Source of the DNA: a virus
Strand: one strand, 5' to 3'
Length of the DNA stretch: 33,945 nucleotides
Virus record (IMG/VR): IMGVR_UViG_3300045960_000027
Span: 1 to 33,945 of that record
The number at the start of each line of letters is the position of its first letter. The first letter of the stretch is position 1. Both the position numbers and the translations under genes were made by a program. Below are positions 1 through 33,945 of this stretch, piece after piece. The notes beneath the pieces were generated by a model. The model was not told the DNA's origin. It ran no database searches and saw only the letters and a list, made by a program, of their open reading frames with translations.

Positions 1-238
1 AAATATCACAAAACTACAAATTCCATATATCGATTTATGCAAATATAATGATCAATGCTGTGCGCTGGCGGAGTCTTCCAAGTCAACCCTCTTACCGCAT
101 AGCACGATATAGCTTTTTATGCAATACAATATGTAGATTTTTTGGCACAATTTTGGATTATTGTCTAATATGGAGGGACGATTTATTGTGGTATGACTGA
201 TTCGTACGTTCGAAATATTGATATATGCCACTGTATCA

Positions 239-440
239 TTATGACTCAGCGTAATTATATTAACGTAGCGTAATTATTTTAATCAAAACTATTACACACA
301 GTAATAAAATAACAATAAGTAATTATTACTCCGCGTGACATCCCTACACAAAGTTATTATAACTCAGAGTGGTGTCACATTTTATTTAATGATATGTGCT
401 AATTCACAATAATGAATATAGTTACACAGAGTGACATTAC
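239..440. repeat. Series of imperfect quasi-palindromic repeats in AT-rich non-coding DNA
   Basis: At least six degenerate copies of a TTAC-N-C-N-G-N-GT(G/A)A-type motif occur about every 30 to 60 bp, near 241, 261, 292, 326, 361 and 421. Examples are TTACTCCGCGTGACATC (326) and TTACACAGAGTGACATT (422). Looser relatives lie at 841 (GTCACCCACCGTGACATC) and 1121. The surrounding 500 bp are AT-rich and contain no ORF. Spaced repeats of this kind can be replication-initiator iterons or repressor operators; the sequence alone does not decide. No initiator or repressor gene is recognisable next to them. Confidence 0.5.
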
Positions 441-543
441 ATTTTGTAATGCATATTATGCAATTCATTGCCAAGGCACAATACCCGCCCAGGCGCCGTG
501 AATCTGCGTTCTATGCATTAAAATGACTGTCCAATGTCTACAT

Positions 544-627
544 ATTGATGCACGTTAGCCGGGGGGATTCTGCGTGAATCCCTAGATTTCCCCGGAAAAT
601 CTCGCGGGATCAGAGATGCGCATCAAT
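544..627. other. Predicted three-way-junction structured element
   Basis: Closing helix ATTGATGC (544-551) pairs with GCATCAAT (620-627). Inside are two arms. The first is CCGGGG (559-564) with CCCCGG (590-595), capped by GGATT/AATCC (565-569/577-581). The second is ATCTC (599-603) with GAGAT (613-617). All these helices are exact Watson-Crick, and the element stands out as GC-rich in AT-rich surroundings. It could be a small RNA, a cis-acting DNA structure at an origin, or a packaging site. The transcribed strand is unknown and no promoter was identified. Confidence 0.45.
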
Positions 628-704
628 GTTACGTACATCTATTTAGTGTCCGTTATGTTACTTTAATATGTATATTTTATTCAGTTATATCATTAGGCAT
701 GGAG

Positions 705-815
705 GGGGGGGGCAGGTTTGGGGCCGAAAGGCATGCATCCGAACTTAGTCAGCCAGCCATCGCAACTAGGACTTCTGTTGGTGCATGCCCCTACGGCACC
801 TAACCTGCCCCCCCC
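705..815. other. Long GC-rich hairpin, candidate non-coding RNA or cruciform
   Basis: Eight G plus CAGGTT (705-718) pair perfectly with AACCTG plus eight C (802-815), a 14-bp stem. After a T-T mismatch the helix goes on with GG/CC, a G-A mismatch and GCCG/CGGC (723-726/794-797). It then continues with GGCATGCA (730-737) against TGCATGCC (782-789), a bulged T and CC/GG, and ends in an inner AGTC/GACT arm (747-750/770-773). The whole 111 nt folds into one rod-like hairpin. On the plus strand it is followed by ACTTTTATAT. It matches no RNA family I can name. Confidence 0.55.
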
Positions 816-879
816 ACTTTTATATAATTAAACGTCAAATGTCACCCACCGTGACATCTCGTCGAACCCATCTCGCGCC

Positions 880-1007
880 TCGAATCGCACACGACACGCC
901 ATCTGTGTGTCGGCAGGGTTCCATTCAATACGGGTGCCTATCGCTATGCCCTTTGTAAAATCGGCTAAAAGCCTATGGCATGCGATGTCGTGTAAGTGGT
1001 GCGTCGA
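880..1007. other. Second predicted long-range folded element
   Basis: Nested complementary segments run inward: TCGA (880-883) with 1004-1007, CGCAC (886-890) with GTGCG (999-1003), ACGACA (891-896) with TGTCGT (986-991), and GCCAT (898-902) with ATGGC (975-979). A small GGCT-AAAA-type hairpin lies inside (963-973). Individual helices are short, so this fold is less certain than the 705-815 hairpin. It lies next to the terminator at 1039-1076. Confidence 0.3.
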
Positions 1008-1032
1008 ATTTAAGTCGATTTCTCAGGGCAAA

Positions 1033-1076
1033 CAAAAAGGGGCACGATGACCCGACGAATCGAGACACCGTGCCCC
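1033..1076 (-). terminator. Intrinsic terminator of the leftward gene block
   Basis: GGGGCACG (1039-1046) and CGTGCCCC (1069-1076) form a perfect 8-bp stem with a 22-nt loop. Read on the minus strand the stem is followed directly by TTTTTGTTTG. This suits a rho-independent terminator about 190 bp downstream of the primase-helicase stop codon, ending the leftward transcript. Confidence 0.75.
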
Positions 1077-1269
1077 TCAATACAACACACGCGTATATTC
1101 AATTTAGTTCGATGAAATCACATTACCCAGTGTGATGTGACACAGCGTTACCATAGTGCGATATTCGACGTGCCGCATCGCACTACAATACGATAATAAT
1201 AGTACAGTAATATAATGCTCGACAATACATTACGCCATAGCGTGTTCGACAGCCCGCGCCACCATAGTG

Positions 1270-3504
1270 TCAATTGATTAATATTCCTCGATAACCTCGC
1301 ACACCACGTTTCTTGACGGGCACGACGGGAAAGTCCTTGGCCACGACGATGGTACTGGCGAACGCCTCATAGAATCTCTGTGCGCTCATTTGATGGAAGC
1401 CATTCAATAACGCCCATGTCGTGTACTCCGAGTACACCGTCGTCCTCGGTGTGAAGTCGCCGAGCCCCGGCGGCCTTGTGCACACTCGCTCCTCTATGAA
1501 CGAGCGCATGGGGTCAGCGTCACGTCTGAAATTCGCGGTCGCTTTCTGCACTGATTTTGGAATGGTGAATTTTCCGCGACGGAGTACTTGTTGCAGCCCA
1601 CCGACCGAATAACGCAGTAGTCCCTGCATATTGTCGATAGTGGTCAACTTGTCCACTAAGTTTGTGTCAGCCTTACCAGCTGGAAAGAAATTCTCGAATG
1701 GCACGACAACCCATCTGGAAAAGAACCCCTCTGTCGTGTCCGCCGTACGGGGTAGGGCATTGAACGCTGCGATCATCAAGGCACGGCACCTGAATACGAA
1801 TGGGTCCTTGTGCTTGTTTTGAGCGGTCATATAATCACCGCCTGTCAACTGCTTGAATTTCTCTGTCGATTTGAATATCTTGGGATCGACGTCACCGACC
1901 AAATTCGCCAATTTACCATGAAGTTGTGCGGCCGTGAATTGCGATGAGTCTAGGTCTTGTGGGGTGATGGCCGCTATATTGCTGTGGCCAACCAACATAC
2001 GCGCCAATCGTATGAATGTGCCCTTACCGTTACGGCCCGAACCATACAGTAGAATAGCCTTGTGTAGCGGATTGTCGTTATACAGCATATAACCCAACAA
2101 TTCATAGGCCAATTCGACTGCGTCATTCGGTAATATCTCGCCGAGGAATTTGTCGATCATAGGACATTCCGCGTCCTCATTCCATGGTATTGGTATTCTG
2201 ATCGTGCTGACAATATTAGGGTTATGTGGATGCAGCTTGCCTGTTCTCCAGTCAAGTAGACCATTTGGTAAATTCAGATAATCGGTGTCTTGCTTGTCGT
2301 CACGTATGAATGGAACACGTGACTCAATTACGGATTTGACATTGATCGCATGACTGGGTCTCCAACGTTGCCGCAATAATGACACGGTTCGACGTGTGAT
2401 CTCATAGTCACCGTCATTCGACCACACGCCATCATGGTGTCGGTAAATTATTCCGCCAGTGCCCGCGGCAAGATTTCCAGTCAACTCAACGGCATTGCGC
2501 AGTGTCTCGGAGCGCAGACCGTGCTTTGGGTCGAAGAATCGATCTGGACTCTTGTGTCGTTCTTTTTCCTCTATCAGGCAGGGGTCATCGGCTCTGACAA
2601 CACCCAGTGCGGATTTCTCCACCGCCCCCACGCACGCGCGTGACCATTCCGCCTCCGCTTGTCCCGGTTGTCGTCGTCCGCACTGTTCTATCAAATACAA
2701 AAATAAATCTTTTATCTTCCGCAATTCCACAACTCCACCGGTATGTCCAGTGCTTATCTCTGACACTATGGCCCATACGGCGTTTGTCATGGCGTCATGT
2801 AATCCGCCATCGCTGTGCTTTTTGATCAGTCGTATGTGTGTGTTGACCACACGCCGCATCTGTGGACACGCGACACCCTTCCCATGTTCACGAAGCCATA
2901 GACGACTGTCAACATTAGCTCTGTCACGACGGACATAGCCGCCACGACCCGCTAGTGTCAACCATTTTTCGGGTATGTCGGCGAACTCATCCGTACCAGG
3001 GAAATACGCGGTTGATGTGCGTAGTATTTTGCCGTTGAAATTGGCCCATCGATAGTGTGCGCCCGATGGGTGAACGGATGGTGGGATCACCATATATCTG
3101 TAGTGACGATATATGAGGTCGAGTCCAATGGACAATTTGCCTGGCCACACCGTCCCCGCGGGTGTGGTAAACCACAGATGATAGTGTTCGGGATCCCCTC
3201 TATAGGATACCCAGGTCCGCGGAAGTTTACCGTATTCGTATTCTAATTCGTCCAATGACGCTTGACCCGCGGCACCATCGATGTCGAGAACTACCACGCC
3301 ATCGGGAACCACTGTACCAATGTTGTGTTGTCTATTGGATGACAGCCAACCCGTCACGCTGTCGTCATCCACTATCACATCATTAGGAATACCAGAGGGT
3401 GGCGGGTACTTCTTACCGAATGGCAATGGGATTGGAAGGTATCCAGCGTTTAAATAGTCATCAGCCGCGACATGGAAGGGGGACCAACTATCCTTATTCT
3501 TCAT
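1270..3504 (-). CDS. Primase-polymerase / SF3 helicase (phage primase-helicase)
   Basis: This 744-residue protein should prime and unwind phage DNA at the replication fork. The N-terminal part is a bifunctional primase/polymerase domain. It has the metal-binding LDIDG motif (residues 73-77), the HYHLW motif (107-111) and a third conserved segment, PPSVHPSGAHYRW (about 141-153). The C-terminal half is a D5/P4-type superfamily 3 helicase with Walker A GSGRNGKGT (about 488-496), GDVD as Walker B (537-540), and the typical FNALPRTADT plus FFSRW segment (581-598) with sensor Asn and Arg finger. The start is supported by AGGTGATC 7 nt upstream. It is the last gene of the leftward block, with a terminator downstream. 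Part of its 3' region (1440-1518) is repeated inverted at the contig end. Confidence 0.92.
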   Translation of the reverse strand: MKNKDSWSPFHVAADDYLNAGYLPIPLPFGKKYPPPSGIPNDVIVDDDSVTGWLSSNRQHNIGTVVPDGVVVLDIDGAAGQASLDELEYEYGKLPRTWVSYRGDPEHYHLWFTTPAGTVWPGKLSIGLDLIYRHYRYMVIPPSVHPSGAHYRWANFNGKILRTSTAYFPGTDEFADIPEKWLTLAGRGGYVRRDRANVDSRLWLREHGKGVACPQMRRVVNTHIRLIKKHSDGGLHDAMTNAVWAIVSEISTGHTGGVVELRKIKDLFLYLIEQCGRRQPGQAEAEWSRACVGAVEKSALGVVRADDPCLIEEKERHKSPDRFFDPKHGLRSETLRNAVELTGNLAAGTGGIIYRHHDGVWSNDGDYEITRRTVSLLRQRWRPSHAINVKSVIESRVPFIRDDKQDTDYLNLPNGLLDWRTGKLHPHNPNIVSTIRIPIPWNEDAECPMIDKFLGEILPNDAVELAYELLGYMLYNDNPLHKAILLYGSGRNGKGTFIRLARMLVGHSNIAAITPQDLDSSQFTAAQLHGKLANLVGDVDPKIFKSTEKFKQLTGGDYMTAQNKHKDPFVFRCRALMIAAFNALPRTADTTEGFFSRWVVVPFENFFPAGKADTNLVDKLTTIDNMQGLLRYSVGGLQQVLRRGKFTIPKSVQKATANFRRDADPMRSFIEERVCTRPPGLGDFTPRTTVYSEYTTWALLNGFHQMSAQRFYEAFASTIVVAKDFPVVPVKKRGVRGYRGILIN
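1440..1518. repeat. 79-bp inverted repeat, internal copy (within primase gene)
   Basis: These 79 bp are an exact reverse complement of 33867-33945, the last bases of the window. This copy encodes an integral part of the primase-helicase C-terminus, so it is the native one. Identity stops abruptly at 1518/33867. Confidence 0.9.
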
Positions 3505-3583
3505 GTGTGATCACCTATACCATAGAGAAAGTCAATCCCACAACCAAATCCACGTGTCCAGTCCACTATTCCATACATATTTT

Positions 3584-3597
3584 CCCAATACATTGGG
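3584..3597. promoter_or_regulatory. Small palindrome upstream of the primase gene
   Basis: CCCAATACATTGGG is a near-perfect palindrome with 6-bp arms about 80 bp upstream of the primase start, in the 494-bp gene-free gap 3505-3998. It may be an operator. No clear -35/-10 pair was identified around it. Confidence 0.25.
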
Positions 3598-3757
3598 TTC
3601 GCTATGTATTTTTCCATTCCATCGTTTGGATCCAATCAGTGTCAAACCATTGCATGGTCCCCCAATGGCGACTCTGTATAATTTTTCATGGTAGACATCT
3701 GATCTATCCTTGACATCGGTTCTGGCCATTATATCGTTCCAATTCGTGAGAATAGAA

Positions 3758-3794
3758 AGAGGGCATCTCACCCTCACCCGATGAGATGCCCTCT
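3758..3794 (-). terminator. 13-bp hairpin, probable leftward terminator
   Basis: AGAGGGCATCTCA (3758-3770) pairs perfectly with TGAGATGCCCTCT (3782-3794) around an 11-nt loop. On the minus strand the stem is followed by TTCTATTCTC, a moderately T-rich tail. It would end transcripts coming from the resolvase and 74-residue gene before the primase gene. Confidence 0.5.
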
Positions 3795-3796
3795 CT

Positions 3797-3995
3797 GATA
3801 TGGCTACGCCACTGCATGAATAGCCATATCGTGGTCTATCGCCACCCTGCGATAGACCTTGTGTAGCGCTTTGGATGTGCCGACTGTCTATCTCAATGCG
3901 TGGACAGGCCATTTCGGAGGTGTAACAGACAGTCGGCACATCCAACCAAGTGTGCGTTTCACACTACGTGGTGTCAAGTGTGTTCCGCAACACAC
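3797..3995. repeat. Array of five further consecutive perfect hairpins
   Basis: Immediately right of the 3758-3794 hairpin lie five more inverted repeats. They are GATATGGCTA/TAGCCATATC (3797-3806/3821-3830), GGTCTATCGC/GCGATAGACC (3833-3842/3849-3858), a 19-bp perfect pair (3871-3889/3927-3945) with a 37-nt loop, AGTGTG/CACACT (3949-3954/3960-3965), and GTGTGTT/AACACAC (3978-3984/3989-3995). Arms are perfect and unrelated in sequence, so this is not one repeated unit. The gap carries no convincing gene. The array may act as a leader or RNA processing region, or as a structured non-coding RNA. Confidence 0.7.
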
Positions 3996-3998
3996 AAA

Positions 3999-4223
3999 TT
4001 AATCTGATTCGTTCACGATAGAGATGACGTCGTTCTTGTGCACCATCATCAAGAATCGTATTGATGTTCCAATCATGATGACATCGGGGTCTAATTCTGG
4101 CATCTTTGGGTCCATGTATACCGGAACGACTATGCTCATGTAATCTTCCGACAGTTTGACCAACTGCCCGTGAACAAATTCTGTCTCAGCGGTAACCGGT
4201 GTCTCACAACACACATTCATCAC
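3999..4223 (-). CDS. Hypothetical protein, 74 residues
   Basis: A small leftward gene whose start overlaps the end of the RuvC-like resolvase gene by 20 bp, which suggests translational coupling. The product is mostly beta-prone, with a VVPVYMDP segment and an acidic C-terminus (NESD). I recognise no domain. It sits at the downstream end of the pol-resolvase run, just before the hairpin array, so it may be an accessory replication protein, but that is only inference from position. Confidence 0.6.
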   Translation of the reverse strand: MMNVCCETPVTAETEFVHGQLVKLSEDYMSIVVPVYMDPKMPELDPDVIMIGTSIRFLMMVHKNDVISIVNESD

Positions 4224-4698
4224 TCGTCACTGACTTCTGTTTCAACCTACGCAGCCACACAATGGCATGTTGCATAGCGGCGAACTCATCCTTTTTGAAA
4301 CTACGGGTGAATCCGAAACTGCGCATCCTATCTCTGGTGACGTTGGTACGCATAGTACGCTTTTGCGTATTGAAGGTCACACCACTTTTATAGCATTCCC
4401 ATGCCAGCACGGCGTTGATACGCACTGGACTCAATAGATTTCTCCCGCCGAGCATCTGAGTCAGTTCGAAGTCCTCAACCACCACGTCAAAATGAGCGTT
4501 CTGTCTTCGATATCGAATCATTTTTGCCGCAAGGGTCAGCTGCTCATGCTCGTTTCCATGCAACTCCCCCGCCGACCACTCGTCGACATTGGCCAATATC
4601 TTATTCTCTGGCTTGGCGAACGCGTTCATGTCAACTATGAATTTCGCCCAACCTATCACGCCGCCGGGGTCGAAGACTAACACTATGTATTTACTCAT
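4204..4698 (-). CDS. RuvC-like Holliday junction resolvase
   Basis: The 164-residue protein starts with a RuvC/RNase H-fold signature, VLVFDPGGVIGWA, in which Asp10 is the first metal ligand. VVVEDFEL (72-79) supplies Glu75/Asp76, and KKDEFAAMQHAIVW (135-148) supplies the C-terminal Asp137/His144 pair. The segment RNLLSPVRINAVL is also typical of phage resolvases. Length fits phage RuvC-like nucleases. It would resolve branched replication or recombination intermediates before packaging. It lies directly downstream of the polymerase genes and overlaps the next small ORF. Confidence 0.82.
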   Translation of the reverse strand: MSKYIVLVFDPGGVIGWAKFIVDMNAFAKPENKILANVDEWSAGELHGNEHEQLTLAAKMIRYRRQNAHFDVVVEDFELTQMLGGRNLLSPVRINAVLAWECYKSGVTFNTQKRTMRTNVTRDRMRSFGFTRSFKKDEFAAMQHAIVWLRRLKQKSVTSDECVL

Positions 4699-4699
4699 T

Positions 4700-4900
4700 T
4701 TAGTTTACTTTGGGAAACTTTGGGAATTCATAGTTGAGTTCCCCCCATTCGGACAACAGAGCGTCATAGACGGTCAATTTGACTGTGGCATCGGGCTCGA
4801 TCACCATGTCAACGATTTCAATGACATCGACAGTGCCACTAGATTTATCGTTCACGTTATCCTTATTCCATCTTTTTATTTCACATATCCATGACCCCAT
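4700..4900 (-). CDS. Hypothetical protein, 66 residues
   Basis: Short ORF overlapping the 3' end of the polymerase palm gene by 25 bp and ending 1 bp before the resolvase start. Its tight fit between two recognised genes supports it as real. The product is acidic in the middle (DVIEIVDMVIEPD) and ends in PKFPKVN. No domain is recognised. Confidence 0.6.
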   Translation of the reverse strand: MGSWICEIKRWNKDNVNDKSSGTVDVIEIVDMVIEPDATVKLTVYDALLSEWGELNYEFPKFPKVN

Positions 4901-5727
4901 GATGGCCCATACACCTTGCCGCTGGCGGTCAATGGAACATCATTGATTGTTGTGCGCATGATCGAGCAATAGCGCTCGATATAATAATCAGCCTCATCGC
5001 TGGGTACCTGTGCTAGAAATTCGTCATGTATTGGCAATAGCAATGTTGGTGCCAGAATACTATCGTCCATCACACGCAATAGTGCTGTCGCCATGACATC
5101 ACGTGCCGTACTCTGTATCTCATGATTTACCACGGTGAACGCCTTCTCGGCGTCAATTATCAAACGACGACCAAACAATGTCGTCGTGTATCCAACCTTC
5201 CCACCTAGTAGTCGATGTATTTGCCTTTTAATTATTCGTCGCGCGACGAGTCCCTCGGATGTGTCGGCTCTAACTGTGTACATTCGTTGTCGTAGTGCCT
5301 TGTACACTCTCGAATCACATGGTGTGAGAGCACTATTCAATAGCGCATTTTGTTTCATAACTTTATAGCGCTTCAAGTATGGGAACGCCATCTCATAATC
5401 TGCTATGACTTTCGCCGCTTGATTGATTGAGATGTGTACCTGCTTCGACAGTGTGTCCGCGCCACCCCCGAACAGCCATCCAAAATTCAGATTCTTTGTA
5501 TAACGATATTGGTCGGGAGTGTAGTCAGGCCCAAATAATTTGATGGCCGCGGTCTTGTGCAGCGATTCGCCACGTTTGGCGGCGTCAATCAGACTGATCT
5601 CACCGGACAGTGCCGCGGCTATGCGCAATTCGATTTGGTCGTAGTCAACACTGATCATAGTCATGCCGGGGTCCGGAATGAAACAACGCCGGACCGCGGC
5701 GGAACTCAGTATGCTAATGCGTGTCAT
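4876..5727 (-). CDS. polA: Family A DNA polymerase, C-terminal palm-fingers subunit (split polA)
   Basis: The 283 residues contain the polymerase catalytic core. Motif A is ISVDYDQIELR with catalytic Asp28, motif B is YTKNLNFGWLFG (76-87) with Lys78 and Phe82, and motif C is LLPIHDEF (230-237) with Asp235. The N-terminus begins just before the VRRCFIPDPG stretch that normally precedes motif A, so the gene starts where the exonuclease/thumb gene (5994-7187) stopped. The start codon overlaps the stop of the 85-residue gene by ATGA, so translation is probably coupled. Oddities: the motif B position equivalent to E. coli Arg754 is Tyr74, and that of Tyr766 is Phe86. The two fragments must associate to form one enzyme; that is inference. 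Confidence 0.88.
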   Translation of the reverse strand: MTRISILSSAAVRRCFIPDPGMTMISVDYDQIELRIAAALSGEISLIDAAKRGESLHKTAAIKLFGPDYTPDQYRYTKNLNFGWLFGGGADTLSKQVHISINQAAKVIADYEMAFPYLKRYKVMKQNALLNSALTPCDSRVYKALRQRMYTVRADTSEGLVARRIIKRQIHRLLGGKVGYTTTLFGRRLIIDAEKAFTVVNHEIQSTARDVMATALLRVMDDSILAPTLLLPIHDEFLAQVPSDEADYYIERYCSIMRTTINDVPLTASGKVYGPSWGHGYVK

Positions 5728-5981
5728 GTTTTTTTGTATTTGGTCTTCGGTCCATTCGACGTGTCCTTGTACGCGGCGACCGCGCGTCGTTTGTCATAGT
5801 CGACCATTGACGCGTACACCTCGATTCGCACCGATGCGGCAATCTCCAACAGGTCCTCCAAGGGCATGGACTTCAATTTCGCCTCATATTGCTGAATAAT
5901 CTCCAAAGTCAATTGTTCACGTGTCGCGGTTGTGAATGAGCCAGCGACGGCGGCAGTCAATGGGTCATATGGCGTAGTCAT
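5724..5981 (-). CDS. Hypothetical protein inserted between the two halves of the DNA polymerase
   Basis: An 85-residue, largely helical protein with a charged middle (EIIQQYEAKLKSMPLEDLLE) and a basic tail (PKTKYKKT). It lies exactly between the exonuclease/thumb and palm/fingers genes. It is in the same frame as the upstream fragment but separated from it by in-frame TAG and TGA codons, and it overlaps the downstream fragment by 4 bp. No homing endonuclease, intein or intron motif is visible. It may be a bridging subunit of the split polymerase or an unrelated insertion. Confidence 0.65.
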   Translation of the reverse strand: MTTPYDPLTAAVAGSFTTATREQLTLEIIQQYEAKLKSMPLEDLLEIAASVRIEVYASMVDYDKRRAVAAYKDTSNGPKTKYKKT

Positions 5982-5993
5982 ATGTCATTGTCT

Positions 5994-7187
5994 CTATTCA
6001 TTGTTTTTGGTGGGCAGCTGCTGCAATGGCGGATTACTCACGGACATCCTAGCGGTTCGTGCCGCCAGAATGTTGATGGATGGATGGATTCTCCCATTGT
6101 CATCCATTTCGCGTAGCATACTCTCCGTATAACTCTTTCTTCGTTTCGCACAACGCTTAGCCTCTAGCACACAATCGATGAACGCGAATAGGTATGTATC
6201 CTTTGTGATCGTTGTGCCATCCGATTGATAGGCATTCGATAGATCACGCAATACCGAATCGGTGACTTGCAACTTTCCCGTGGGTGTTCTCTTGGACAGA
6301 GTACCGCCGAGAGTGATGATTGTATCGGCCAATTCCTTGGTGCTATTCAGGTTGGAACAGCCACAAAATTTGATGTGTGTCATATCCATGTCATACACAG
6401 CGCCATATGATTCATTCAATCTACGTGTGTAGTCGACATCCAATCGAATGGCCCGCCGCTGTAGTGTGTCAGCGACTCGCGCCACACGTAGATCAAATTC
6501 ATACAACTCTTTGAATTGGTTGACAACTGGCTCCAATTTGTGCCATAGACGATAGGTCAATAATGGATCACTTCCGGCGTAGGCTATATACTCAGGGCAT
6601 CGCTTGTTCACCAAACGCCAACCCTCCGACAATCGCGCGGCGCGCGTTCTTCTCTGTCCCTTCTTCGGTCCCTGCTTATAGTGACCCTTTATCGGTACGC
6701 GTAGTGTTTTGAATAATTTCTTTAATGCTGTCTCCCACTTCCCGGCGGAACTGTCGACATAATGAATCGCCAGTTCCTTCAGACCATGACCAACACCACC
6801 CTCCGCGGCATTCCGTGGGTCGATATGATGCGACGGTATATGCGTTTCCATATCGCATTTGACACCTGTGTCATATCCAAGATATCTGTCTATACAGCGA
6901 ATGTCATGACAGCCATTGTGTCCAATCCACCGAATCGGTTGTCTCATCACCCACGCTATCAATGAGCGCCTCTCGGCGGGTATCACATAACTTGTGACGG
7001 CATCACCGATCTGTAGTGTGCGCAGTTTCCATGAATGGGAATAGCAATTGAGTCCTGTCGACTCTGTGTCAATGCCCAGTATGGGATTGCTGTTGACAAA
7101 GTGCTTTACTTGTGGATAATCCTCTTTACTATTGATATATTTGAATGTTATATGATCACCAGCCAATGTATCATGTATGGTCAACAT
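5994..7187 (-). CDS. polA: Family A DNA polymerase, N-terminal 3'-5' exonuclease and thumb subunit (split polA)
   Basis: The protein has an intact DnaQ-like proofreading domain: Exo I GIDTEST (Asp40, Glu42), Exo II HNGCHD (Asn91, Asp95) and Exo III YAGSD (Tyr203, Asp207). Thumb-like sequence follows. It ends at GRIHPSINILAARTARMSVSN then PPLQQLPTKNNE, the segment that in ordinary PolA proteins runs directly on to the palm. The reading frame stops there, and the palm follows 267 bp away as a separate gene. The start overlaps the upstream 176-residue gene by 17 bp. At 397 residues plus 283 the total matches a full phage PolA, so no catalytic part seems lost. Confidence 0.88.
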   Translation of the reverse strand: MLTIHDTLAGDHITFKYINSKEDYPQVKHFVNSNPILGIDTESTGLNCYSHSWKLRTLQIGDAVTSYVIPAERRSLIAWVMRQPIRWIGHNGCHDIRCIDRYLGYDTGVKCDMETHIPSHHIDPRNAAEGGVGHGLKELAIHYVDSSAGKWETALKKLFKTLRVPIKGHYKQGPKKGQRRTRAARLSEGWRLVNKRCPEYIAYAGSDPLLTYRLWHKLEPVVNQFKELYEFDLRVARVADTLQRRAIRLDVDYTRRLNESYGAVYDMDMTHIKFCGCSNLNSTKELADTIITLGGTLSKRTPTGKLQVTDSVLRDLSNAYQSDGTTITKDTYLFAFIDCVLEAKRCAKRRKSYTESMLREMDDNGRIHPSINILAARTARMSVSNPPLQQLPTKNNE

Positions 7188-7701
7188 CAGAACACACGAT
7201 CGTGTCGACTATATTGTCCACGGCGTCTACGGCTGATGTCAGTTTGTCTGTCACAATTTGTGATCTGAAATTCAATGTGCACCTACTCAATCGTATCTCG
7301 AACTCAATTCGCGAGATTGGAATAGCCCACTCATCAGAGTGCCATCCATCATAGTCGACTATATCTAGGTGATCATATCGCGCGTCGTGTAGCCATTCGC
7401 ACGGCCTGCGCAATTCTCCCGCGATTCGTGAGGTGATGAAACCTAGATAACCCAGTACCAACCCTTCTTTGGTGTGTACGGGGCATGCTGGGTGGGGTTC
7501 CTGTGGCAATCGATACCCGCCAGAGTCGCTGATTGACCATTCACATATACAATAGTCAGTTGTCACACTCGTCTCAATGGCCTTGATGTATTCCGCGGCC
7601 ATCTCTTTCTTGGTGTTCCGCCTACCCGAGTTGAACAGTTCACTCATTGGTCGATCATCAGCGGAATTGGCCTTGGTCTTACGCTTGAATAGTCTCATCA
7701 C
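7171..7701 (-). CDS. Hypothetical protein with Cys/His cluster
   Basis: A 176-residue soluble protein. Its N-terminus is basic (RLFKRKTKAN), and a middle segment DYCICEW ... CPVH has Cys and His residues placed as in a small zinc site. The start is GTG 7701 or ATG 7698, immediately after the stop of the preceding membrane protein gene. It overlaps the exonuclease gene by 17 bp. No family is recognised; position suggests early, replication-time expression. Confidence 0.65.
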   Translation of the reverse strand: MMRLFKRKTKANSADDRPMSELFNSGRRNTKKEMAAEYIKAIETSVTTDYCICEWSISDSGGYRLPQEPHPACPVHTKEGLVLGYLGFITSRIAGELRRPCEWLHDARYDHLDIVDYDGWHSDEWAIPISRIEFEIRLSRCTLNFRSQIVTDKLTSAVDAVDNIVDTIVCSDVDHT

Positions 7702-7962
7702 TCACCATGTCACGAACATTCGAATGTTTAGATACATGAAAATCAATCCAGCGATGAACACGCCCGCGGCCATTGTCACAATTATTTGAGTCAGTGACAC
7801 GACTGGCTTTCGTTTATGTCTGATTATGGGTGACATGAATTTCCGTTCCGCGACTGTTCCATTCGCCAGACTATCTTTGATGCCATCACCGCAACCAGCG
7901 GCGTTCAATATGGTGATCACATTTGGGGAATTGTAGGCCAATCTATGTTTAGGCACATACAT
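7702..7962 (-). CDS. Small single-span membrane protein
   Basis: The 86-residue product has a soluble N-terminal half and one strong transmembrane segment near the C-terminus (SLTQIIVTMAAGVFIAGLIF, about 56-75). A GAGGT ribosome-binding site lies about 10 nt before the ATG. The stop is contiguous with the start of the next gene. Function unknown; small early membrane proteins of phages often modify the host envelope or exclude other phages, but nothing here shows that. Confidence 0.6.
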   Translation of the reverse strand: MYVPKHRLAYNSPNVITILNAAGCGDGIKDSLANGTVAERKFMSPIIRHKRKPVVSLTQIIVTMAAGVFIAGLIFMYLNIRMFVTW

Positions 7963-7991
7963 GACGCACGTACCTCACTTTCACTCAAACA

Positions 7992-8026
7992 TGCGAGAGC
8001 ACATTCGCCATGAATATGCTCTCGCA
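7992..8026 (-). terminator. Intergenic hairpin, terminator-like
   Basis: TGCGAGAGCA (7992-8001) and TGCTCTCGCA (8017-8026) form a perfect 10-bp stem, extended inside by ATTC/GAAT. It lies 11 bp after the stop of the small gene at 8037. The downstream minus-strand sequence TGTTTGAG is only weakly T-rich, so it could be a leaky terminator or an RNA-stabilising hairpin. Confidence 0.45.
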
Positions 8027-8283: not shown

Positions 8284-8868
8284 TTAGAAGGGTTCGTCGT
8301 CGTCGTACTCGTCGTCGTCGCTTTCTTCTCCGTACTCGTCGTCTTCGTCGTCTTCGTCTTCGACGGTGTCGTCATACTCATTCTCCGAATCGTTTTTGGG
8401 AACCGCTCCCATCCAACCGATCTCTTTCCGTGGGTTACCGTTTTGATCCTGGCCTTCTTGCAAACGCGCCAAGATTGTAACGGCACCGGTATTACGCCAG
8501 TGACCAAACTGTTTGATATTTCCCTCATTGTCAACGATCATTTGATTACAGAACTCACGTCCCGTGATACCGATGGCATCGCAGAATGGAACATATGTGA
8601 ATTGGTTATTAGCTGTGATGGTACGGAATACCATGATGAAGTAACCCTTGTACTTCCGTTCCTCTGGAAAATTCCTGCGCGGTTCCAACTGTAGGCCAAT
8701 ATACAGTTGTGGGTGCGTTGTCTTCGTCCTCGGCGTGCTTCTCAGCGTCTTGATTCTAAACTCATACACACCAACCGGAGGGACCGGCCCTGTATATGGA
8801 GCGAAAATGGTACTACGATCGAAATTATCGATCAATGACGGGTCGATACCCCACGAACCTCTAGGCAC
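8284..8868 (-). CDS. ssb: Single-stranded DNA-binding protein with acidic DDDEPF tail
   Basis: A 194-residue protein with a roughly 140-residue N-terminal globular part rich in beta-strand segments and aromatic residues, followed by a highly acidic tail. The final residues DDDEPF resemble the C-terminal tip of bacterial SSB (DDDIPF), through which SSB recruits partner proteins. The gene follows the Sak4-like ATPase gene with an 8-bp overlap, a pairing known from phage recombination modules. Start is GTG 8868 with AGAGGG upstream. The OB-fold itself is inferred; the tail and neighbour are what I see. Confidence 0.72.
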   Translation of the reverse strand: MPRGSWGIDPSLIDNFDRSTIFAPYTGPVPPVGVYEFRIKTLRSTPRTKTTHPQLYIGLQLEPRRNFPEERKYKGYFIMVFRTITANNQFTYVPFCDAIGITGREFCNQMIVDNEGNIKQFGHWRNTGAVTILARLQEGQDQNGNPRKEIGWMGAVPKNDSENEYDDTVEDEDDEDDEYGEESDDDEYDDDEPF

Positions 8869-10908: not shown

Positions 10909-10984
10909 TGGTGCTCTTAGTGAGATTCGAACTCACACTATACGACTTTTAAGGTCGCTGCCTCTGCCATTGGGCTATAAGAGC
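10909..10984 (-). tRNA. tRNA-Leu(UAA) with short variable loop, CCA encoded
   Basis: On the minus strand GCTCTTA and TAAGAGC form a perfect 7-bp acceptor stem, followed by A73 and encoded CCA. The T arm is GTGAG-TTCGAAT-CTCAC. The anticodon arm is GCGAC-CTTAAAA-GTCGT, with T33 and anticodon TAA, reading codon UUA (Leu). The D arm is GCC/GGC plus a C-A opposition. The variable region is only five nt (ATAGT), whereas bacterial tRNA-Leu normally has a long extra arm. It sits between leftward genes at 10874 and 11032 and is preceded by a hairpin. Confidence 0.85.
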
Positions 10985-16245: not shown

Positions 16246-16275
16246 AGTAATACCTCCAATATTGGCCATACAAAC

Positions 16276-16360
16276 GATCATACGACAAGTGATCGAGTCA
16301 CTTTGAGGCAACCATGGATGGCAAGAAAGCCGATTTAATCCGTGGGACTGTCGTATGATC
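16276..16360 (-). promoter_or_regulatory. Three-way-junction leader in front of the AP..YW cassette
   Basis: GATCATACGACA (16276-16287) pairs perfectly over 12 bp with TGTCGTATGATC (16349-16360). Inside lies AGTGA-TCGAG-TCACT (16288-16302) and a second arm with GGAT/ATCC enclosing GGC-AAGAAA-GCC. It lies 31 bp upstream of the first cassette start codon. It may act as a riboswitch-like leader, attenuator, or protein-binding site. Confidence 0.5.
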
Positions 16361-16392
16361 TATTGTACATCCAATATTAAAAAATATAGATA

Positions 16393-17284: not shown

Positions 17285-18057
17285 TGGGCACCGCGAAGGG
17301 TATGGTCGCGGCGATGGCCTCACTGATTGGCGTTGGAGAGGAGACGACCAATCATAATTTTTTGACCAGATGGTATGCCGACAGGATGGGCACGGCCTAT
17401 CGCGTCTGTCCGTGGTGTGATATCGCGGTTAGCTATGCCGCCGCGGCATCTGGTAATACAGACGCCACATGCGGCATGCACGCGTGGACTGTTGAGCACG
17501 CCAGAGCGTTCGACAGCGCTGGACTATGGAATTTCGGCAGTGCTGGTATCGGTGTCGGCGATATTGTGTTCTTCGATTGGACTGGTAAACAGGATATCGC
17601 TAAAATTGACCATGTTGGTGTGGTGGAATACATAACCACCAGTGGTTATATCGGAACCATTGAGGGCAACACCGATGACGTCTGTAAAAGGCGCTTACGC
17701 TCGCCATATTATATCGCCGGATATGGTCGCCCAGCCTATGACGGAACGTCGTCGATTACCAATGCATTGATTGTTGACGGTGAGTTTGGTCCATTGACCA
17801 TCAAGGCTTTACAAAGACAACTAAACGATGCGTTGTCGATTTCGCTAGATATTGACGGTGAGTTTGGTCCATTGACCAAAAAAGCTTTACAACGCCATTT
17901 GAACGCGAAATTACCCACTAATCTAATGGTCGATGGTATTATTGGATTTTGGACCACATGTGCGCTACAGCGTCACGTGGGTACGACTGTCGACAGTATT
18001 TGGGGCAAGCTCACCACAAAGGCGATTCAACGTCGTCTAAACGCGGTGTCATTCTAA
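17284..18057 (+). CDS. CHAP-domain endolysin with C-terminal peptidoglycan-binding repeats
   Basis: 257 residues. The N-terminal CHAP amidase/peptidase domain has catalytic Cys45 in VCPWCDIAVSYAA, His110 in KIDHVGVVEY and Glu127/Asn129 in TIEGN. The C-terminal 100 residues hold four tandem repeats of the DGEFGPLT-x-KALQR-x-LN type (about 162-182, 188-208, 213-232, 236-252), a PG_binding_1-like cell-wall anchor; the last two are degenerate. No signal peptide, so export depends on the holin. ATG 17284 is chosen because GGAGGTGA lies 7 nt upstream. This and the preceding small ORF are the only plus-strand genes. Confidence 0.88.
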   Translation: MGTAKGMVAAMASLIGVGEETTNHNFLTRWYADRMGTAYRVCPWCDIAVSYAAAASGNTDATCGMHAWTVEHARAFDSAGLWNFGSAGIGVGDIVFFDWTGKQDIAKIDHVGVVEYITTSGYIGTIEGNTDDVCKRRLRSPYYIAGYGRPAYDGTSSITNALIVDGEFGPLTIKALQRQLNDALSISLDIDGEFGPLTKKALQRHLNAKLPTNLMVDGIIGFWTTCALQRHVGTTVDSIWGKLTTKAIQRRLNAVSF

Positions 18058-18065
18058 ATTTTAAT

Positions 18066-18110
18066 CACAAATGTGGCCAGTAGATTTGATGTCTACTGGC
18101 CACATTTGTG
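18066..18110. terminator. Bidirectional terminator between endolysin and tail genes
   Basis: CACAAATGTGGCCAGTAGA (18066-18084) pairs perfectly over 19 bp with 18092-18110 around a 7-nt loop. It lies 8 bp after the endolysin stop and 18 bp beyond the stop of the convergent tail gene, the expected place for a shared terminator. Confidence 0.75.
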
Positions 18111-18128
18111 CATTGGTATAACTGACCA

Positions 18129-18731
18129 TCAGGTTTCGGTGGCCAATTTTCCAATTGAGGTCAGACTGATGGTAAATGGGTATACCGCTGCTGCGATGAA
18201 TTTGTTTACCGCCGCCCCCAATGTGCGGGTCGCTTTCAAAACTGGTGTGAAAGTGTCATCACCACCTGTTCCCGCTCCCGCCTCCCATAGAGTGCGCATA
18301 TTGACCCTAACCGCTCCGGCGGAAGTGTAAAGATATACGTAGGTCGACACAACTGATGCGGTACCATTCAGCAAGTCTAATTTGGCCTCATTGTCATTGC
18401 CGGCATACGGACCGTATGTTATGTTCACATCGACCCAATAACTTTGCGCCGCTGGAATGGTCATGGACGAACCCGTGAATATGGTTGTGATGGTGGTGAA
18501 TGTCGATCCTACGGGATCCGATGACGTATCTCGGTAATATCCCGCCATCTGTCCAGCACATAATTGCCACGACGCGCCATTCCAGAAAAAATATAGCTTG
18601 GTATCAGTTTGATATAGTGTGTCTCCGACCGTCTTGCCCGTCAACGCCACACGCGCGGCACTGTTGGCCACTATGTATGGTGTTTGACTATCCTCGGCTC
18701 TGATTATCTCGCCAGCATATTGACCACTCAT
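18129..18731 (-). CDS. Putative minor tail / tail-tip protein
   Basis: 200 residues. The N-terminal part (TPYIVANSAARVALTGKTVG, then DTLYQTDTKLYFFWNGASWQ) resembles short tail-spike collar repeats that mention a displayed value and a W-rich end. The rest is beta-rich with many Thr/Ser. It is the last gene of the tail operon, right after the large minor tail protein, where receptor-binding or fibre proteins usually lie. No catalytic motif. Receptor binding is inference. Confidence 0.6.
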   Translation of the reverse strand: MSGQYAGEIIRAEDSQTPYIVANSAARVALTGKTVGDTLYQTDTKLYFFWNGASWQLCAGQMAGYYRDTSSDPVGSTFTTITTIFTGSSMTIPAAQSYWVDVNITYGPYAGNDNEAKLDLLNGTASVVSTYVYLYTSAGAVRVNMRTLWEAGAGTGGDDTFTPVLKATRTLGAAVNKFIAAAVYPFTISLTSIGKLATET

Positions 18732-31992: not shown

Positions 31993-33378
31993 TTATCTCT
32001 CTATCAATGAGGCACGCGGAATGTTCCTCGTGTCCAGGTGTGCGACCATGTATCTCACACAGTCCAAGCCATCATCATACAGCTTGCGTGGTTCTTCCTG
32101 TGTGTTCTCGTTAGACGTCTTCCACTCGTACATTCCCCACTCGTCATTCAGACACAGTGGCTTCGCCCTATCGGCGAGACGTTGATCCCTCTCCACCAAC
32201 GCGTCCTCCATTATCCGTATCTCGCCGTTGTCCAATCGACGCATGACCAAGTCTATTCCCTCATTGACTCTCTTGACAGCGGGTACCGTCGATAGCCCTG
32301 TGGCGCGTTCGAAATTGCGTCGACTCTCCGCGTCATGGTCACATATCACCGCATTTGGTCGTGGTTCCACCCACTCGGTTATCTCCTGCGTCACCATACG
32401 CTTATTCAAATGATCATAATATTCCGTAGTAGTTGTTGGTCGCACTATGTCCATTATCGTTTGAGCGTGTTCGCCGACAGTTTTGTTAGTCATATATATC
32501 TCTCGATACATATACAGCACGTCAGCGGGACTGACCGCCCAACATTGCAGCACAAATGGATGCACGAAGCCGAAGTCTATGACCCAATACCTAGGCCACG
32601 TCTCGGGTAATTCCACACGTTTACCCGCGGAATCAAATTCCCAGCACTTCCTATGTACTTCCTCATCATAATTCTCATACACAACACCCTCGGCGGACCC
32701 CCACAACCCCTTTCGCAGTCGTTTGTATCTGACTCCAGTCAAATTATCCAAAATTTTGATATACTTTTGCCCTTGTTTTGTCAATACCCCATTATCATCA
32801 TACAACCTTGGATTGTCTTCATGTCTTGACCTGATAAGTGTCGTCGTACCCTCATCAACGCGCAATTTAAGCCAATGCCGCGAGCTATTCGGGTTACAGT
32901 CCATAATCAATTGCTGAAAACTGATATTCCAGTTGCGTAGACGAGTGTTTATCAATTCAAGGTCATTCAGCGTTATCTCGGTGGCTTCCTGTACGAATAT
33001 GATGTCATATTCCGATGACATGATTCGCACCGGATTATCCAACCCACCTATGGTGATGGTGCTGCCATTCTTGAATCTATATTGTGGTGGCTCCTGTGAG
33101 CTGCCTCCGTAGTACACGACATTTCCCGTGGCTATCGCCTCCTTGGCAACGTATCGTCGCCATGTCGTCAACGCCGTGGAACCCAGTGATCGCAGTGTCT
33201 TTCGCAATATCAATCCGCGAGTCCCCCTATTCATCAGACACACGGTCAACATCTTCTCCAAACACGCGCGAGACTTTCCAGTACCCGCCGGGCCCGATAT
33301 CAATACCTCATCATCTCGGCACTCCATCAACTCTTTACAACCACCGCGAGGCGTGTACACGTGCTCTAGGCGTGTCAT
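31993..33378 (-). CDS. terL: Terminase large subunit
   Basis: 461 residues. The ATPase part has Walker A SGPAGTGKSR (28-37) and Walker B YDIIFVQEATE (about 124-134). The nuclease part has VIDFGFVHPF, VICDHDAE and DDGLDCVRYM, the three acidic clusters of the RNase H-like fold. It cuts and pumps DNA into the prohead. It overlaps the small subunit stop by ATGA. The presence of both catalytic domains in intact form supports a functional gene. Confidence 0.92.
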   Translation of the reverse strand: MTRLEHVYTPRGGCKELMECRDDEVLISGPAGTGKSRACLEKMLTVCLMNRGTRGLILRKTLRSLGSTALTTWRRYVAKEAIATGNVVYYGGSSQEPPQYRFKNGSTITIGGLDNPVRIMSSEYDIIFVQEATEITLNDLELINTRLRNWNISFQQLIMDCNPNSSRHWLKLRVDEGTTTLIRSRHEDNPRLYDDNGVLTKQGQKYIKILDNLTGVRYKRLRKGLWGSAEGVVYENYDEEVHRKCWEFDSAGKRVELPETWPRYWVIDFGFVHPFVLQCWAVSPADVLYMYREIYMTNKTVGEHAQTIMDIVRPTTTTEYYDHLNKRMVTQEITEWVEPRPNAVICDHDAESRRNFERATGLSTVPAVKRVNEGIDLVMRRLDNGEIRIMEDALVERDQRLADRAKPLCLNDEWGMYEWKTSNENTQEEPRKLYDDGLDCVRYMVAHLDTRNIPRASLIER

Positions 33379-33854
33379 CGCATCGACTCCATGTCCACAC
33401 CCTGAATGTCGACGGACAGAACGTCATCTCCGGCGGACTCACCCGAACCACGGTGTAACAACTGTCCCAACTCATTTGCCGCTAAAATCAAATAGCTTCT
33501 GAACTCTCGCACAGTTACTGAGTCACAACTGTCCTTGGCATGCTTATATAACACTTCCGATATCTCTTGCAGTCTGTAGAGTCGCTGAAACTTATTGGTT
33601 ATCCACAAATCCGACAGCTGAGATGGCGTCAATGTATTGGACTCGTCTCGCGGTTCGTCATCAGTCTCGGGATCGATTGACTCCACTGAATTAGCCATCA
33701 ATGTCAATCGATCCCTATTGTCGTCCACGAAATTACGTAGTTCCTCCACAGGCACCCCATACCATTTAGATATGTCATTGGCAGTGCCCGAACGATTGAT
33801 GATGTCGTTTATCATTTGTCTTCTATCCTCAGATGACAGTTCATGTAGTCCCAT
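33375..33854 (-). CDS. terS: Terminase small subunit (helix-turn-helix)
   Basis: 159 residues. The N-terminal part (INRSGTANDISKWYGVPVEE, then LRNFVDDNRDRL) is a helix-turn-helix region; the middle and C-terminal parts are helical (oligomerisation). It overlaps terL by 4 bp and is the first gene of the leftward head operon. No good ribosome-binding site is seen before ATG 33854, and the DNA just upstream belongs to the 79-bp inverted repeat, so the true upstream region may be missing. Confidence 0.78.
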   Translation of the reverse strand: MGLHELSSEDRRQMINDIINRSGTANDISKWYGVPVEELRNFVDDNRDRLTLMANSVESIDPETDDEPRDESNTLTPSQLSDLWITNKFQRLYRLQEISEVLYKHAKDSCDSVTVREFRSYLILAANELGQLLHRGSGESAGDDVLSVDIQGVDMESMR

Positions 33855-33866
33855 GCGCTTATGATA

Positions 33867-33945
33867 GCTGACCCCATGCGCTCGTTCATAGAGGAGCGAG
33901 TGTGCACAAGGCCGCCGGGGCTCGGCGACTTCACACCGAGGACGA
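33867..33945. repeat. 79-bp inverted repeat, terminal copy (contig end)
   Basis: The last 79 bases are the exact reverse complement of 1440-1518, within the primase gene. The repeat runs to the final base of the window and starts 13 bp upstream of the terminase small subunit gene. In this position the sequence has no coding sense of its own. The most likely explanation is an assembly junction. Confidence 0.9.

Follow-up and report, generated by a model that had tools for sequence, protein, structure and literature searches.

The window analysed here is a single virus record of IMG/VR (IMGVR_UViG_3300045960_000027), taken at its full length of 33,945 bases. Nearly all of its genes lie on the minus strand, in the order terminase, head and tail genes, and replication genes, the latter encoding an SNF2 helicase, a PD-(D/E)XK nuclease, an AAA ATPase, a split family A DNA polymerase and a Prim-Pol/D5 protein (Table 1). 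Next to its other domains, this last protein matches the C-terminal domain Pox_D5 just below the cut-off (21.2 bits versus 21.4, E 4e-4). Its gene, termed the primase gene in what follows, stops at position 1270, and beyond it comes a hairpin-rich stretch, positions 1-1269, in which no credible ORF is found, as the initial annotation had also concluded. The closest named phages are Dagobah (MCP 43%, TerL 45%) and P1312 (TerL 51%), both of which infect actinobacteria, so an actinobacterial host is likely for this phage as well. A further hint of such hosts comes from DUF2637 proteins encoded near the small terminase gene (TerS) in relatives, namely, at 588-1070 of L008 and at 2919-3539 of L183 (above cut-off in L008, weak in G031). 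The two DNA polymerase A genes (4876-5727 and 5994-7187, both on the minus strand) correspond to the exonuclease/N-terminal part and to the C-terminal part, with a small unrelated ORF (5724-5981) between them; G031, G032 and G036 have a two-part polymerase gene as well.

Table 1. Coordinates of the features discussed in the text, in positions of the window.
Feature	Position	Strand	Remarks
One arm of long inverted terminal repeat (1-1439 assigned from relatives)	1..1518		Outer end beyond record
Module of box A (AAAAGTCCAGTGA-like) and box B (CTATTAAAATC-like), fixed 48-nt spacing	175..242	-	PWM score 23.9
Seven dyads TNAC-N5-GTNA (242, 261, 292, 310, 326, 422, 437)	242..449		Clustered
Three-way junction	544..627	-	z -3.6; no counterpart in relatives (blastn of 1-1270)
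Rod hairpin, proposed stem-loop replication origin	705..815	-	z -8.6; compensatory changes in 10 repeats
Further dyad TNAC-N5-GTNA	842..854
Nested fold	880..1007		z -1.5/-2.3; indistinguishable from background
Intrinsic terminator of leftward primase transcript	1038..1077	-	-31.9 kcal/mol, z -6.9, then TTTTTG
Two further dyads TNAC-N5-GTNA (1123, 1138)	1123..1150
Prim-Pol / SF3 (D5-like) helicase replication protein	1270..3504	-	PF09250, D5_N, DUF5906 above cut-off
RuvC-like Holliday-junction resolvase (fold level)	4204..4698	-	AlphaFold pLDDT 86
TerL	31993..33378	-
Small terminase subunit (TerS), by position	33375..33854	-	Directly upstream of TerL; conserved family A8
First 79 bases of other, inverted arm	33867..33945		100% reverse complement of 1440-1518; record stops there

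Comparison of positions 1-8000 with 50,697 phage records by blastn gave no match. Since single-protein scans with the primase and with a tail protein also gave nothing, relatives had to be reached through an alignment of TerL, which led to relatives with 57-63% identity. A search of viral contigs with the pattern GGGNGCAGGTTRGGTG returned 26 loci, mostly chance occurrences, yet including L014, G001 and G028.

The last 79 bases of the window are the inverted copy of a segment of the primase gene, whose 3' part (1270-1518) would thus lie within a repeat, and they sit upstream of the small terminase gene, which adjoins the inner edge of this second copy. The same arrangement was recorded in relatives. 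In a relative of 41,130 bases (G031) both arms are complete, inverted and identical over 1,121 of 1,121 bases, and they reach both contig ends; two other relatives have exact inverted end overlaps of 127 bases (G036) and 97 bases (G032). More generally, an inverted copy of the primase gene's 3' end region lies beside TerS in 24 of the 37 related loci; this copy begins with codon 589 in most of them, and with codon 663 in the window. The other 13 loci have no inverted primase fragment, and not all of them can be accounted for. Direct terminal repeats were absent from every record tested, beyond chance 16-mers. On the basis of the 79-base inverted match, the two arms of G031 and the inverted primase fragments of the relatives, we conclude from sequence comparison that this tailed phage has a long inverted terminal repeat, of which positions 1-1518 are one arm, with 1-1439 assigned to it from the relatives. 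The primase part of the arms is only 72-78% identical between different genomes, and the identity of the G031 arms therefore indicates that the two arms of one genome are homogenised.

Whether they approach the repeat from the primase gene or from TerS, contigs stop similarly far inside it, at about a k-mer length, and L008, one of the loci without the inverted fragment, ends exactly at the repeat edge that is seen in L009. For linear plasmids whose termini are inverted repeats, the reported signature is that both arms collapse into a single graph node (PMC9453081). G002, which had been considered as a counter-example, was dropped as such, since this contig stops exactly where L009, of the same species, enters the arm.

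Within the arm, the initial annotation had described three consecutive folds, of which the rod hairpin is by far the most prominent. Its predicted free energy is -68.4 kcal/mol on the plus strand and -73.5 kcal/mol on the minus strand (z -6.8 and -8.6, respectively), and in a scan of the whole record in 1,128 windows of 120 nt it was the strongest fold, its minus-strand z being reached by 0 of the 1,128. The rod is about 110 nt long (111 nt in the window), with an internal loop and a partly conserved apical sequence, and no T-run follows it in the window. Every repeat that we recovered contains a rod, with z from -3.4 to -9.5, and it is the most stable fold in eight arms; its distance from the primase stop codon is 453 nt in the window and 3-404 nt in relatives. 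The covariance check proposed by the initial annotation bore out the rod, with compensatory changes: in an alignment of ten sequences, both partners have changed without loss of pairing in 25 of 33 pairs, a figure that 0 of 500 shuffles reached and that fell to about half or less when the structure was slid along the alignment. No counterpart of the other two folds was found, blastn of 1-1270 against the relatives giving no homologue of either. Of these, the three-way junction does form, as had been claimed, but its stability is moderate, and this on the minus strand only (z -2.1 on the plus and -3.6 on the minus strand, 32 of the 1,128 windows lying below the better strand), and the nested fold proved ordinary, with z of about -1.5 to -2.3 and some 115 of the 1,128 windows lower.

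A covariance model (R1) built from eight rods, that of the window among them, gave 83 bits on the window's rod, as a member of the training set. Independent matches were obtained in L009 (E 5e-13) and L205 (E 5e-8), and weak ones after the primase gene of G028 and of a prophage-like locus from Mycolicibacterium; in the latter, the hairpin and the 3' end of the primase gene overlap. The model did not match the stem-loop of phage BPP-1, nor was a rod found in six extra loci (L221, L224, L227, L233, L237 and L238). G-rich hairpins were also seen at the 3' end of Prim-Pol/D5-type genes in a Mycolicibacterium MAG (L176, 8537-8643, inside the reading frame) and, by eye, in a Kitasatospora genome (L175, about 8547-8640). 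In the distant relative G028 (L143, about 2190-2500), the primase gene, three hairpins bounded by GATCAAGGGTGCA and TGCACCCTTGATC, and the terminase gene follow one another on one strand; no inverted repeat was seen there, and this layout is perhaps ancestral.

The rod is accompanied by other elements. The module of boxes A and B occurs in 10 of 10 arms tested, the window included. The next best PWM score in the whole window is 2.0 and that of shuffled sequences at most 10.4; the module has no conserved fold on either strand. Used as the sole pattern, it led to L205, a locus with TerS, TerL and an inverted primase fragment, which then proved to carry the rod. The module also scores 22.5 bits near 722 (minus strand) of L237, a TerS-bearing contig with neither rod nor primase fragment, which runs on into other sequence. 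The repeats that the initial annotation had noticed correspond to the dyads TNAC-N5-GTNA. Positions 1-1270 hold 10 of them and the remaining 32.7 kb hold 7, with 0.4 expected for 1-1270 from shuffled sequences, and most other arms are likewise enriched in dyads. Proteins acting at the genome ends probably bind the dyads and the A/B module. Small ribbon-helix-helix-like ORFs were seen by eye inside the repeat of G001 (L006, about 660-880) and of G034 and G035 (L152 and L153, after the primase fragment), and their products are candidates for dyad binding. The neighbouring terminator had likewise been correctly recognised. Elsewhere in the window, a strong fold at 18001-18180 (z about -7.5 on both strands) lies between the convergent endolysin (plus strand) and tail genes (minus strand) and is probably a bidirectional terminator, and further strong folds are found at 3721-3840 (minus strand, z -6.5), inside the ORF 3532-3945, and at 16261-16380 (z -6.0).

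As to the ends themselves, perfect terminal palindromes are present in two contigs only, namely, G032 (98 bases) and L014 (54 bases); the ends of the G031 contig have no long terminal palindrome. Both lengths equal k-1, for k = 99 and k = 55, which is what an assembly graph would be expected to leave on reaching the axis of a longer palindrome, if these assembler settings are assumed. These palindromes suggest hairpin ends or head-to-head junctions. A search for the catalytic domain of protelomerases (ResT-TelK, PF16684) gave no match in 11 records, some possibly incomplete, with a positive control in one genome. A RuvC-like gene is found a few genes upstream of the primase gene in 10 of the 11 records. 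Pfam and PDB sequence searches with its product returned nothing, and it was the predicted fold that matched, the best Foldseek matches being RuvC of D. radiodurans (E 3e-5) and the resolvase of fowlpox virus (E 5e-5). Phages that lack such ends commonly encode RuvC-like resolvases too, and as these enzymes also serve other tasks in phages, a role in telomere resolution is here put forward as a possibility.

For the function of the rod, the plasmid pRN1 provides a precedent. A 100-nt stem-loop downstream of its Prim-Pol/SF3-helicase gene is required for replication, as shown by deletion, and together with the replication operon it is sufficient; moreover, restored pairing brought back the replication that one stem mutation had abolished (PMC4234260). 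According to the authors, Bordetella phage BIP-1 has a comparable stem-loop; they noted that direct proof of origin function was still lacking (PMC4234260). The likeness of our locus to pRN1 consists of a stem-loop of about 100 nt, 3' of a gene for a Prim-Pol and SF3 helicase, with the structure kept and the sequence varying, and of a terminator between stop codon and stem-loop. With BPP-1 it shares the order primase, stem-loop and terminase genes; the proposed BPP-1 origin is single and internal, whereas here it would be double, terminal and within an inverted repeat. It is this precedent, together with the similar gene order of BPP-1, that leads us to read the rod as an origin.

Thus, we propose that the rod serves as the origin at which this phage's Prim-Pol/SF3-helicase protein acts. 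The protein, whose gene lies immediately upstream, would melt and prime DNA at the extruded stem-loop, by analogy with pRN1. Because the rod lies in a repeat found at both ends, each genome would have two origins, which may fire inward from the termini. The ends would probably be hairpins or head-to-head palindromes that are resolved during replication, hairpins as such having about an even chance, and the conserved RuvC-like protein could possibly resolve them in the manner of poxvirus telomeres, which we rate below the hairpins themselves. Taken as a whole, an inverted terminal repeat with a pRN1-type rod origin at both ends and probable hairpin or head-to-head ends is the explanation that we favour with fair confidence. 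Among the options raised by the initial annotation, namely, non-coding RNA, replication origin and packaging region, the origin fits best; that annotation was thus partly supported, although the main point, the long inverted repeat arm, could not be seen by it.

The rod might instead be a transcribed structured RNA, either a regulator or a packaging RNA. Strong pair covariation would be expected of such an RNA, but DNA hairpins share this property, and what speaks for RNA in particular is a weak strand preference of G-U pairs, with 34 on the primase-sense strand versus 18 on the other. However, the rods fold well on both strands in 8 of 8 cases and are more stable on the other strand in 3 of these 8, the window's rod lies downstream of the strong terminator of the primase transcript, and its position and size match those of a tested stem-loop origin (PMC4234260). 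The initial annotation had recognised no RNA family either, and Rfam gave a single match in the whole window, the tRNA at 10912-10984 (a tRNA-Leu with anticodon taa, 10909-10984, minus strand), with nothing above the gathering score in 1-1270. We therefore regard an RNA as unlikely, and find it somewhat less likely still that the rod is simply a transcription terminator or insulator closing the gene array. The latter would agree with the distance of 3-15 nt between primase stop and rod in several relatives, yet the window has a separate terminator, and a rod of this length and architecture, lacking a T-run, is not what a terminator would call for.

That chimeric inverted joins, arising during assembly or amplification, have created the inverted repeat artificially seems very improbable, even if all sequences are metagenome contigs and assembly graphs can produce short terminal palindromes. 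More than 20 diverged genomes have the inverted arrangement, most of them sharing the boundary codon, the fragments have diverged by 22-28% between genomes, G031 has both full arms, and the contig ends follow the pattern described for genuine linear plasmids of this architecture (PMC9453081). A far stronger contender, to which we give a little less than an even chance, is that the repeat is real and the ends are not hairpins, the molecule being either linear with protein caps, or a circle with a giant palindrome that is cut centrally by terminase. Contig ends would then look much alike, and the presence of a terminase and the failure to find a protelomerase agree with this. On the other hand, protein caps alone would not yield long terminal palindromes, and the polymerase belongs to family A; a search for the protein-primed family B polymerase (PF03175) had no match, as was also the case for its control. 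Perfect palindromes of 2-3 kb, as the circle would demand, are unstable in bacteria; in sequence, a linear molecule and such a circle would look alike.

The proposed arrangement, with rod origins in both repeat arms and probable hairpin or head-to-head ends, resembles several known systems in part. Phages of the N15 type are tailed phages with palindromic ends too. In N15 there is a short palindrome only, and the hairpin telomeres are made by a protelomerase, whereas here the inverted repeats are of kilobase size and no protelomerase domain was found in the 11 records. Poxviruses share long inverted terminal repeats, a D5-like primase-helicase and a resolvase of RuvC fold, the fowlpox enzyme being among the best structural matches; in contrast, ours is a tailed phage of the HK97 type that encodes a terminase and a family A polymerase, and its hairpin ends are putative. 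Linear replicons of the Streptomyces type and enterobacterial linear plasmids have terminal inverted repeats of about 1 kb and an equal signature at short-read contig ends (PMC9453081), but they are plasmids or chromosomes with terminal proteins, and in the present tailed phage no terminal-protein gene was identified. Even the nearest named phages differ, the terminal repeats of Streptomyces phage Dagobah (1,187 bp) being direct rather than inverted, and Thermobifida phage P1312 being recorded as circular.

The tailed-phage genomes described so far mostly have cohesive ends, direct repeats or headful ends, hairpin ends having been described for phages that encode a protelomerase. A stem-loop origin is in itself of a known kind; what appears to be new, as far as the literature searched goes, subscription journals excepted, is such an origin within long inverted terminal repeats, in a clade of tailed phages without a recognisable protelomerase. 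Because the assembler collapses the two arms, contigs of this sort are filed as incomplete 'linear' fragments. The rod model may serve as a marker for origins tied to Prim-Pol/SF3 replication proteins, in phages as well as prophages. If our reading is true, a clade with kilobase inverted terminal repeats, each bearing a stem-loop origin, and no recognisable protelomerase would represent a further solution to the replication of DNA ends, one that is directly testable.
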